38,133 bases of DNA, from contig JAICME010000009.1 in the NCBI GenBank assembly GCA_025929425.1, positions 1 through 38,133 of the forward strand, in the 5' to 3' direction. The DNA is from Thermoleophilia bacterium. GTDB taxonomy: Bacteria > Actinomycetota > Thermoleophilia > Gaiellales > Gaiellaceae. Position numbers and translations under genes: made by a program. Shown piece after piece: positions 12,644 through 23,644 of the stretch. How positions within the stretch are numbered: the first letter of the stretch is position 1; each line of letters begins with the position of its first letter. Below the pieces are notes generated by a model, which saw nothing but the letters and a program-made list of their open reading frames with translations, made no database searches and had not been told where the DNA came from.

Positions 12644-13390
12644 GTGCCCTCGAACCTGCACACGGAGCGAGACGGCGACGTCCTCCGCATCACGATGGCG
12701 CGTCCCGACCGGCGGAACGCGTTCGACGCGGCGCTCATCTCGGAACTCGCGGAGGCGTTCGTCGCCGTCGGTCGCGCCCGCGCGGTCGTGCTCGCCGGCG
12801 AGGGGCCGAGCTTCTCCGCCGGAGCCGACGTCGACTGGATGCGTTCCTCCGTCGATCTCTCCTACGAGGAGAACGTCGCCGATGCGAACGCGCTGCGCGC
12901 GATGCTCGAGGCGATCGACGGGTGCTCGGCCCCGGTCGTCGCGAGGGTCCAGGGTCACGCGCTCGGCGGCGGAGCCGGCCTCGTTGCGGCAGCCGACATC
13001 GCGATCGCCGCGCCCGATGCCGTCTTCGCGTTCTCCGAGGTGAAGCTCGGGATCATCCCGGCCGTCATCTCTCCTTTCGCGCTGGCCAAGATCGGCGGGG
13101 GCTCGGCGCGCCGCTACTTCGTGACCGGCGAGCGCTTCGACGCGGAAACAGCTCTCCGGATCGGGCTCGTGCACGGAATCGCGGAGAACCTCGACGCGGA
13201 GGTGGACAGGGTCGTCGGTGAGCTCCTCTCAGCGGGGCCGCAGGCTGCGCGCTGGGCGAAGCGCCTCGTCCGCGAGCGGCCGGACGGCCCCGAGACCGCC
13301 CGCTGGATCGCCGAGCGGCGGACGAGCGAGGAAGGCCAGGAGGGTCTCCGGGCCTTCCTCGAGAAACGCCCGCCGAGCTGGCGGAGCTAG
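12644..13390 (+). CDS. liuC: enoyl-CoA hydratase family, probable methylglutaconyl-CoA hydratase
   Basis: The 248-aa product is a crotonase. The oxyanion-hole segment is HALGGGAGLVAAADIAIA (residues 105-122), and FSEVKLGIIPAVISPF (130-145) contains the general acid/base glutamate E132. This last block is close to the form seen in 3-methylglutaconyl-CoA hydratases, which follow the methylcrotonyl-CoA carboxylase step in leucine degradation. Both carboxylase subunits are encoded on the same strand within 6 kb, which supports this. The start is GTG at 12644, divergent from the broken methyltransferase 24 bp away. A short-chain enoyl-CoA hydratase of other use is the alternative. Confidence 0.85.
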   Translation: MPSNLHTERDGDVLRITMARPDRRNAFDAALISELAEAFVAVGRARAVVLAGEGPSFSAGADVDWMRSSVDLSYEENVADANALRAMLEAIDGCSAPVVARVQGHALGGGAGLVAAADIAIAAPDAVFAFSEVKLGIIPAVISPFALAKIGGGSARRYFVTGERFDAETALRIGLVHGIAENLDAEVDRVVGELLSAGPQAARWAKRLVRERPDGPETARWIAERRTSEEGQEGLRAFLEKRPPSWRS

Positions 13391-21648: not shown

Positions 21649-22778
21649 ACTTCGAGCTGAGCGACGAGCAAGAGCTGATCCGCCGCACCGTCCGCGACTT
21701 CGCGGAGACGAAGGTGGCACCGGTCGCGGAGGAGCTCGACCGCGAGGCCCGCTTCCCGTACGAGCTCGTCGCCGAACTGGGCGGGCTCGGGCTGATGGGC
21801 CTGCCCATCCCGGAGGAGTTCGGCGGCGCGGGCGGCGACACCGTCTCCTACGCGATCGCGATCGAGGAGCTGACGCGGATCGATTCCTCAGTGGCGATCA
21901 CCGTCGCAGCGCACACCTCGCTCGGGACGATGCCGCTCCTCCTCTTCGGCAACGAGGAGCAGAAGCGGGAGTGGCTGCCGCGGCTGGCCTCGGGGAGCGG
22001 GCTCGCGGCGTTCGGGCTGACCGAGCCGGATGCGGGCTCCGACGCGGGCGCGACTCGAACGAAGGCCGAGCTACGCGACGGCGAATGGGTGATCGACGGC
22101 TCGAAGATCTTCATCACGAACGCGGGCACGGACATCACCGCGTGCGTCACGATCACGGCGCGCACCGGCGAGGACGAGATCTCGAACCTGATCGTCCCGA
22201 ACGGCACCGCCGGCTACGAGATCTCGGCGCCGATGCACAAGCTCGGCTGGCGGGCGTCGGACACGCGCGAGCTCTCCTTCCGCTCGTGCGCCGTGCCGGA
22301 AGGGAATCTGCTGGGCGAGCGTGGGCGCGGGTTCAAGCAGTTCCTCGACATCCTCGACGGCGGGCGCATCTCGGTGGCTGCGATGGGCGTCGGTCTCGCG
22401 CAGGGTGCGTACGACCTCGCGCTCGCCTACGCGAAGGAGCGGCAGCAGTTCGGAAAGCGGATCGCGAGCTTCCAGGCGATCCAGTTCCAGCTCGCGGACA
22501 TGGCGACGGAGATCGAGGCCGGACGGCAGCTCGTCTACCGGGCGGCGTGGCTCAAGGACACGGGGAAGCCGTTCGCGCTGGCCGCCGCGCAGGCAAAGCT
22601 CTACACCGGGCTCCTGTCGAACCGCGCCGTGAATGCGGCGCTCCAGATCCACGGCGGCTACGGGTTCATGGAGGAGTTCGCGATCGCGCGCCTCTACCGC
22701 GACCAGAAGATCCTCGAGATCGGCGAGGGCACGAACGAGGTGCAACGCATGGTCATCGCCCGGCACCTCGGTCTCTGA
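21645..22778 (+). CDS. acyl-CoA dehydrogenase
   Basis: The 377-aa product is a complete flavin-dependent acyl-CoA dehydrogenase: AFGLTEPDAGSDAGATRT (FAD contact), KIFITNAGTDIT, and the C-terminal IHGGYGFMEEFAIARLYRDQ and EIGEGTNEVQRM. The catalytic base is E361 in GEGT, the position used by short/medium-chain and glutaryl enzymes. Isovaleryl-CoA dehydrogenase normally uses a glutamate in an earlier helix (here LDGGRISVAAMG, without it). So although the gene neighbourhood suggests the leucine step, a short/branched-chain (for example 2-methylbutyryl or butyryl) enzyme fits the residues better. The start is TTG at 21645 within the stop of the aminopeptidase. Electron transfer flavoprotein genes are not in the window. 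Confidence 0.9.
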   Translation: MNFELSDEQELIRRTVRDFAETKVAPVAEELDREARFPYELVAELGGLGLMGLPIPEEFGGAGGDTVSYAIAIEELTRIDSSVAITVAAHTSLGTMPLLLFGNEEQKREWLPRLASGSGLAAFGLTEPDAGSDAGATRTKAELRDGEWVIDGSKIFITNAGTDITACVTITARTGEDEISNLIVPNGTAGYEISAPMHKLGWRASDTRELSFRSCAVPEGNLLGERGRGFKQFLDILDGGRISVAAMGVGLAQGAYDLALAYAKERQQFGKRIASFQAIQFQLADMATEIEAGRQLVYRAAWLKDTGKPFALAAAQAKLYTGLLSNRAVNAALQIHGGYGFMEEFAIARLYRDQKILEIGEGTNEVQRMVIARHLGL

Positions 22779-22785
22779 GGCGAGA

Positions 22786-22826
22786 CACACTTACGTCACG
22801 GTGGCTGCCACCGTGACGTGGGTGTG
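22786..22826. repeat. long near-perfect hairpin after the acyl-CoA dehydrogenase gene
   Basis: Positions 22793-22819 are a perfect palindrome with 13-bp arms around one base (T22806); the arms begin ACGTCACGGTGGC. It extends outwards through two T-G pairs to CACAC/GTGTG, giving a 20-bp stem. It may act as a bidirectional-type terminator (without a T-tract), or be a member of an interspersed palindromic repeat family. Confidence 0.7.
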
Positions 22827-22853
22827 ACGGCACCGTGACGTAGGTGTGACGGC
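22810..22853 (+). repeat. two tandem 22-bp repeats overlapping the hairpin
   Basis: Two adjacent 22-bp units (22810-22831 and 22832-22853) differ at one base: ACCGTGACGTGGGTGTGACG then GC, and ACCGTGACGTAGGTGTGACG then GC. The left arm of the hairpin is an inverted third copy of the core CACCGTGACGT. The array ends 11 bp before the CtaG-like start codon. Confidence 0.8.
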
Positions 22854-22864
22854 ACAATCCATTC

Positions 22865-23644
22865 GTGCTTCCCGTTGTGTTCGCCGCCGTTGCGGCGCTT
22901 CTCTTTCTCCAGGCCGTCGCGCGGTTGCGGCGCCGAGGGCGCGCCGATCTCGCGGGCTGGGATCGGATCGCGCTCTTCGCCGCCGGGCTCGGAGTGAGCG
23001 TCTTCGCCCTCGTCGGCCCACTCGACCGGATCGCCGACGACAAGCTCCTCTTCGCGCACATGGGCCAGCACGTCCTGATCGGCGACCTCGGCCCGGCGCT
23101 GATGGTCGCCGCGCTGCGCGGGCCGCTGCTCGTCTTCCTCCTTCCCGCCCCCGTCCTCGCGCGGCTCGCGCGCAGCGCCGGGATCCGCTCTGCCCTCCGC
23201 ACGCTGCTGCGCCCGCGCGTCGCGTTCTCGCTCTGGGCTGCGAACCTCGCGATCTGGCACGTGCCGAGCGTCTACGATGCCGCCCTCGCCCACCCCGGTC
23301 TGCACGACTTCGAGCACGTCTGCTGGGCGATCTGCGGAATCCTCGTCTGGACGCTCCTCGTCGATCCGGGCTCGCATCGCCGCCTGAGCATCGGCGGCCG
23401 CGTCGCGCTCGCCGCGGCGCTGTTCGCAGCGGGACAGATCCTGACCGACGTGCTCGTCTTCTCCTTTGCGCGCCTCTACCCCGCCTACCACGGCGCGTAC
23501 GGGGTGTCGGCGGTAACCGACCAGCAGCTCTCCGGGATCGTGATGATGGTCGAGCAGCTCGTCACGCTCGGCACCTGCGTGGCGCTGCTCCTGCGGCCCC
23601 GCTGGAGCCGCAAGCGCGCGTCCCGTCTTGCAGCCGCGACGTGA
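22865..23644 (+). CDS. CtaG-like cytochrome c oxidase assembly protein, copy 1
   Basis: The 259-aa product has about seven membrane helices and the pattern of the caa3_CtaG family. Histidines are placed at helix ends: HMGQHVLIGDLGPALMV, NLAIWHVPSVYDAAL and FEHVCWAICGILVW. The family is linked to copper insertion into haem-copper oxidases in Gram-positive bacteria. The start is GTG at 22865, 11 bp after the repeat array. No oxidase gene is in the window. Its TGA overlaps the start of a second, different family member. Confidence 0.85.
   Translation: MLPVVFAAVAALLFLQAVARLRRRGRADLAGWDRIALFAAGLGVSVFALVGPLDRIADDKLLFAHMGQHVLIGDLGPALMVAALRGPLLVFLLPAPVLARLARSAGIRSALRTLLRPRVAFSLWAANLAIWHVPSVYDAALAHPGLHDFEHVCWAICGILVWTLLVDPGSHRRLSIGGRVALAAALFAAGQILTDVLVFSFARLYPAYHGAYGVSAVTDQQLSGIVMMVEQLVTLGTCVALLLRPRWSRKRASRLAAAT

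Follow-up and report, generated by a model that had tools for sequence, protein, structure and literature searches.

The element lies in the gap between an acyl-CoA dehydrogenase gene and a ctaG-like gene of the window, which is the whole 38,133-nt stretch of DNA that was analyzed. The window (contig C86) belongs to a draft genome of 2.7 Mb in 197 contigs, which is 86.2% complete. From the dehydrogenase stop codon (22778) to the CtaG start (22865), the interval is largely taken up by a palindrome and a tandem repeat at 22786–22852, and the following features were assigned:

22776–22778, + strand: stop codon (TGA) of the acyl-CoA dehydrogenase gene, upstream of the element
22783–22799, − strand: left tail, GTGACGTAAGTGTGTCT on the − strand, with degenerate outermost bases
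22786–22826, no strand: imperfect palindrome with 20-nt arms, 18 of 20 positions paired, 1-nt loop (repeat search and shuffles)
22800–22812, no strand: palindromic core GGTGGCTGCCACC, equal to the core at the ends of the RAYT-like gene on contig C83
22813–22829, + strand: right tail GTGACGTGGGTGTGACG
22831–22852, + strand: tandem duplicate of the right half (half-core and tail), 21 of 22 positions identical to 22809–22830
22853–22858, + strand: CACAAT within the conserved GGCACAATC, possibly the −10 box of a leaderless ctaG transcript
22865–23644, + strand: ctaG-like gene with a GTG start (Pfam Caa3_CtaG, 2.4e-40)

A single core is thus flanked by tails on both sides, and its right half was doubled by tandem duplication. 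The repeat search placed the palindrome arms at 22786–22805 and 22807–22826 (90% complementary over 20 nt) and the direct 22-nt copies at 22809–22830 and 22831–22852 (95% identity). The initial annotation had described three copies of a shorter core, one inverted and two direct in 22-bp units, which was confirmed by the positions of CACCGTGACGT, inverted at 22793–22803 and direct at 22809–22819 and 22831–22841. The 20-bp-stem hairpin and the tandem that it reported were real, with the pairing and identity listed above, and the CtaG gene that it placed 11 bp downstream starts 11 nt past position 22853. No further match to the repeat unit with up to 3 mismatches was found within the whole window, and an Rfam scan of the window returned a single match, a tRNA.

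As a null model, the window was shuffled 100 times with its dinucleotide composition preserved. A palindrome of at least 18 pairs in 20-nt arms, present at one place in the real window, occurred in 2 of the 100 shuffles, an exact 13-nt-arm palindrome (also one real place) in 4, and a 22-bp tandem with at least 21 matches (one real place) in none. Taken alone, the palindrome is only moderately unlikely to be a product of chance; chance does not account for the tandem, for its combination with the palindrome, or, most of all, for the copies at other places. The + strand RNA of the element folds at −48.9 kcal/mol (z −4.1), a value equaled by 0 of 200 shuffles. A second strong palindrome, CGAGGAAGGCC...GGCCTTCCTCG with 15 of 16 pairs, was located at 13327–13361 of the window by a 16-nt-arm test, which misses the ctaG-side element, and a comparable palindrome occurred in 2 of 40 shuffled windows.

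In the family block, a palindromic core of 13 nt, GGTGGC-W-GCCACC, is joined to a tail of 17 nt close to GTNACGNAAGCGTNACG. With one substitution allowed, the core was present at 11 loci of the draft genome, on C86 (window), C40, C78, C136, C103, C26, C79, C14, C48, C108, and C83 (the transposase locus). Counting copies in the genome, as the initial annotation had proposed, gave 11 core loci, and the element is not the single-copy, unconserved sequence that it had named as the contrary outcome. A tail usually adjoins the core, being shortened or degenerate in some copies. The half-unit pattern had 14 matches on 9 contigs of the window's own genome and none with the reversed-pattern control; C140 and C177 matched the half-unit pattern without a core and were left out of the 11. 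The exact half-unit had 0 matches in a scan of the genome contig collection, a set that possibly does not contain the window's own genome. An initial narrower pattern had given only one further place in the own genome (C78), and the family was recognized only once the orthologous junctions of relatives were compared. C103, C79, C108, and C177 were added by the core pattern and by a pattern run across 16 same-genus genomes, C103 coming from the core pattern; the controls for these two patterns likewise gave 0.

The copies differ in form. On C26, C79, C14, and C48, two inverted cores stand 94–127 bp apart with tails inward, mostly with GRCC outside and with no transposase gene, and the paired copy on C26 folds into a single long hairpin. 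In the window, C78, and C136, the half-unit was matched on both strands around a single core, while at C40 and C103 one of the two tails is full and the other is shortened. The C136 tail contains an 11-bp tandem, so the window is not alone in having a duplicated tail. At 10 loci of relatives inspected by eye, two-tailed cores were found in 0 of 19 cases of the GGTAGC class. The C40 copy sits in frame inside a phosphomannomutase-type gene (PF02878-PF02880). A second-type palindrome of G009 (G009:C50:3221-3247, L261) is also in frame, in the same length-variable linker of the orthologous gene as the C40 copy (L247:807-819). In two relatives, related-type palindromes occupy an identical place in a gene that looks like one for an AMP-binding enzyme, at L039 and L056 (G005:C37:2678-2704 and G013:C339:3464-3490).

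The search for a RAYT-type transposase suggested by the initial annotation led to a RAYT-like gene on C83, whose ends match the core and tail of the window. Searching 61 genomes with PF01797 gave matches in 42, and the own genome has two RAYT-like genes (C83 and C67). The C83 ORF of 180 aa scored 26.4 bits with PF01797 (Y1_Tnp), above the cutoff of 23, and 48.8 bits (6.5e-13) with the NCBIfam model REP_Tyr_transpos (NF047646), below the curated cutoff of 80. Its 5′ flank reads GGCC-GGTGGCAGCCACC-GTTACGGAAGCGTCACG and its 3′ flank is the inverted version, with tails inward, so that the gene ends bear the core and tail of the window in inverted orientation. These blocks also make up the inverted ends of the gene-less 94–127-bp pairs. 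The C83 gene adjoins a Fapy-DNA-glycosylase-type gene, unlike the RAYT-like genes of G009, G014, and G011 (L101, L102, L103), which by eye lie just upstream of dnaK (MAKTIGIDLGTTNS); the shared position suggests vertical inheritance in these three genomes.

A phmmer search against solved structures gave 0 matches. The fold model of the G009 sibling (L160, 54–55% identical to C83; 30 sequences) had a mean pLDDT of 92.4, and its best solved match was 4ER8, a REP-bound RAYT (E 2.8e-7, TM 0.63 by query); the ISDra2 and IS608 transposases were also among its Foldseek matches. Judged by this sibling model, the C83 protein is predicted to adopt a Y1 HUH fold nearest to that of TnpA-REP. The second RAYT-like gene, C67, is 37% identical to C83 and falls below the Pfam cutoff. 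Its ends carry GGTGCC, and GGTGCC-type places numbered 14 on 9 contigs of the genome, including both C67 ends, with 0 in the control.

Six RAYTs have a common end layout, in which the arm after GGT is GGC in the own C83, AGC in G009 and G014, ACG in G011, ACT in G015, and GCC in G003, where one end of the element is off by one base. A seventh RAYT with this end layout, G007:C203, has the arm AGC. When 20 RAYTs were placed in a FastTree tree, the 14 outside the six grouped together with a support of 0.994. A single-regex scan of the 300-bp flanks of 20 RAYT loci found cores on both sides at 8, on one side at 2, and on neither side at 10; among these last 10, two have variant cores by eye (ACG and ACT), and a further two are flanked on either side by other palindromes. 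A further 25 actinomycete-type RAYT loci were hand-picked by title from the best 80 of 546 confirmed, and a perfect 13-nt palindromic core common to both flanks was present at 8 of the 25; the controls gave 9 in 600 swapped pairs and none in 21 far flanks. The two sets overlap, since 3 of the 8 look like contigs G009:C3 (L160), G015:C36 (L161), and G018:C243 (L202). Named RAYT relatives, among the matches listed, included Thermoleophilia and Actinomycetota MAGs and one Gaiellaceae MAG. In the named actinomycete MAGs at L168, L163, and L165, the core of the RAYT ends is GGTGTC or GGGGAC, and the tails that come next are partly similar (L168: GTGACGAAAGTGTGACG). Because the tails are partly alike after different cores, the tail may represent an ancient recognition element common to these systems.

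In relatives, the core usually, though not always, changes along with the RAYT ends. All 8 pattern matches of G014 have AGCTACC, as do its RAYT ends, compared with 0 of 13 in the own genome, and the related pattern ACGTCNNGGTNNCTGNNACCNNGACGT was present in 16 of 61 genomes with 0 for the reversed control. There were three counter-cases: the RAYT of G011 ends in GGTACG, yet an AGCTACC copy is dispersed in that genome; copies of the GGTGTC type occur in G008, where no RAYT with matching ends was found; and G018:C243 has the GGTGGC core but falls outside the six-RAYT group in the tree. An uncultured actinomycete lineage hereby gains a RAYT–palindrome system whose transposase and DNA target often co-change between close species, and in one genome two such systems stand side by side. 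These matched pairs form a natural series on which RAYT recognition and the spread of palindromes could be tested.

The dehydrogenase–ctaG junction was compared at the best ctaG loci of 16 same-genus genomes, 15 of which had upstream DNA. Palindromes were present upstream of ctaG in 3 of the 15 (the own genome G000, G001, and G009) and in none of the other 12; the window's core was found in only one of these stretches, the other two having different cores. G001 carries a pair of 27-nt second-type palindromes, and G009 has a GGAACC/GGTACC palindrome with its own tandem half; in both species these palindromes are RAYT-type. The junction of the sister species G006 is empty (TGA-GCGGCACAATC-CCTTC-GTG), and G004, G008, and G011 have short dehydrogenase–ctaG gaps without a core. 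The element is absent at the same junction in these relatives, and we infer an insertion in the lineage of the window rather than a loss in the others. The sequence GGCACAATC, a few bases ahead of the GTG start (window 22850–22864), occurred at 8 of the 16 ctaG loci, with or without a palindrome; it was absent at 7, mostly where dehydrogenase and ctaG abut, and one locus had no upstream DNA. If GGCACAATC is a −10 box, ctaG would be leaderless and the element would lie in the 3′ UTR of the dehydrogenase. This reading stays a guess, since a sigma-70 scan called no promoter there.

Other explanations of the element were weighed against these results. Positioned directly after the stop codon on the coding strand and very stably folded (z −4.1), the hairpin could act in the dehydrogenase 3′ UTR by stabilizing the mRNA or attenuating read-through into ctaG, as proposed for REPs/BIMEs, and REPs were reported mostly downstream of genes (PMC3733652). 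Such an RNA role would be compatible with a mobile origin, but we consider it rather unlikely: no terminator-like site was called within the element, and the hairpin is missing at the same junction in G004, G006, G008, and G011. The terminator put forward in the initial annotation was unsupported. A GC-rich hairpin followed by a T-run was not found in the element, after which CACAATCC comes next, and the simple terminator scan called only one site, inside ctaG at 22882–22897. The same annotation had proposed a regulator-binding array for the oxidase-assembly genes, and three TGACG-type half-sites are indeed repeated near the putative ctaG promoter. However, the same core stands beside other genes and in frame inside the phosphomannomutase-type gene, and the equivalent stretch upstream of ctaG has no core in 12 of 15 cases, the window's core in only one, and other cores in two, which makes an array controlling ctaG very unlikely. 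A tempting but probably wrong reading, that of a ctaG-specific control site, is thereby removed.

It is also very unlikely that the element is a canonical REP with a GTAG or GTGG foot. The GGTGGC and GGTAGC cores do include GTGG or GTAG, and the genome has a RAYT-like gene, but the GGTACG, GGTACT, and GGTGCC ends of three of the six sibling RAYTs are without GTRG, and in the other three GTRG lies inside the paired core and not in an unpaired foot. That a palindrome arose here by chance and was locally duplicated in tandem, with no relation to the other copies, has a probability close to negligible: comparable palindromes did occur in 2–4 of 100 shuffled windows, but the tandem appeared in 0 of 100, and core and tail recur elsewhere in the genome, where the reversed patterns had 0 matches.

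The element is very probably a non-autonomous RAYT-associated palindromic element, that is, a REP/REPIN- or "TIRtron"-like miniature mobile element, and its host an actinomycete that is probably related to Gaiellaceae. The repeat in the window is most reasonably viewed as a small remnant of mobile DNA and not as a switch made to control its neighbor gene. By analogy with known RAYTs, the C83 transposase or its ancestor would most likely have recognized the folded core and tail as single-stranded DNA and spread it; cutting and spreading of a folded single strand would correspond to the activity reported in vitro for E. coli TnpA-REP (PMC8266576). A copy would have landed in, or been rearranged within, the gap after the dehydrogenase stop codon, and either abutted ends or a deletion between two neighboring copies would yield the two-tailed form (cf. 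the "double foot", PMC6006769). Any effect on the dehydrogenase mRNA or on ctaG transcription would be secondary. This mobile-element reading is limited by the few copies (11 loci in an 86%-complete draft), by the below-cutoff scores (NCBIfam for C83, Pfam for C67), by the three counter-cases to a match of core and RAYT, by the RAYT loci at which the single-regex scan found no core on one or both sides, and by the two-tailed form of the window, which differs from that of the RAYT ends. The REP-like family with a RAYT suggested by the initial annotation thus stood as to the dispersed core loci and the RAYT-like gene with matching ends; with few copies and no conserved GTAG/GTGG foot, the family is nearer to "TIRtrons" than to classic REPs.

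A more far-reaching joint reading, which we regard as improbable, would make the 6-nt inner arm of the core an exchangeable recognition code drifting with its RAYT in this genus. Two differently coded RAYT systems would coexist in one genome, different systems would have targeted a small number of permissive sites time and again (the dehydrogenase–ctaG junction and one phosphomannomutase linker), and the one-core, tails-out form of the window would have been left by abutted ends, meaning a circular single-stranded intermediate.

A literature search, with most subscription journals outside its coverage, returned no title on such repeats in this lineage, which leaves their absence from print unproven. 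Among known systems, REPs and REPINs with their RAYT (REPtrons; PMC6006769, PMC8266576) share interspersed palindromes matched to a RAYT and paired inverted as well as intragenic copies. The C83 RAYT-like gene has core and tail at both ends, as in a REPtron, and the palindrome is interspersed and multi-copy, as in a REP. In contrast, an unpaired GT[AG]G at the 5′ hairpin foot was not found, the family has a core plus a separate tail without a conserved GT[AG]G foot, and its 11 loci are few beside the more than 100 copies usual for REPs (PMC2817692). "Double-foot" REPs of subclass 2.4, for which an origin by deletion within an inverted pair was proposed (PMC6006769), are alike in being a single unit symmetrical at both ends, whereas in the window the core is central, the tails lie outside, and the ends are without GT[AG]G. 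The IS200/IS605 family has the Y1 HUH fold in common, but the best solved match of the G009-sibling model was the RAYT 4ER8. HYH and Y119/N123 are invariant among the six sibling RAYTs; the essential residue is reported as N for RAYT and Q for IS608 (PMC6006769), and N123 is probably that essential N.

TIRtrons with their TIRYTs (Di Nocera et al., 2013, PMC3733652) were described as a RAYT-related Y1 transposase gene between inverted non-GTAG repeats, some of them self-complementary, with dispersed single and paired copies. Most TIRYTs belong to subclass 2.1 and have an HTH-like extension at the C-terminus (PMC6006769), whereas Pfam finds only Y1_Tnp in the 180 aa of C83 and no such extension was seen. 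The TIRtron motif GGGGWSAS (PMC3733652) fits the GGGGACAG core half at L163, while the window family begins with GGT instead of GGGG. The C83 element shares the TIRtron layout, its transposase gene being enclosed by inverted repeats that have no relation to GTAG REPs, and of the known systems TIRtrons fit it best in architecture.
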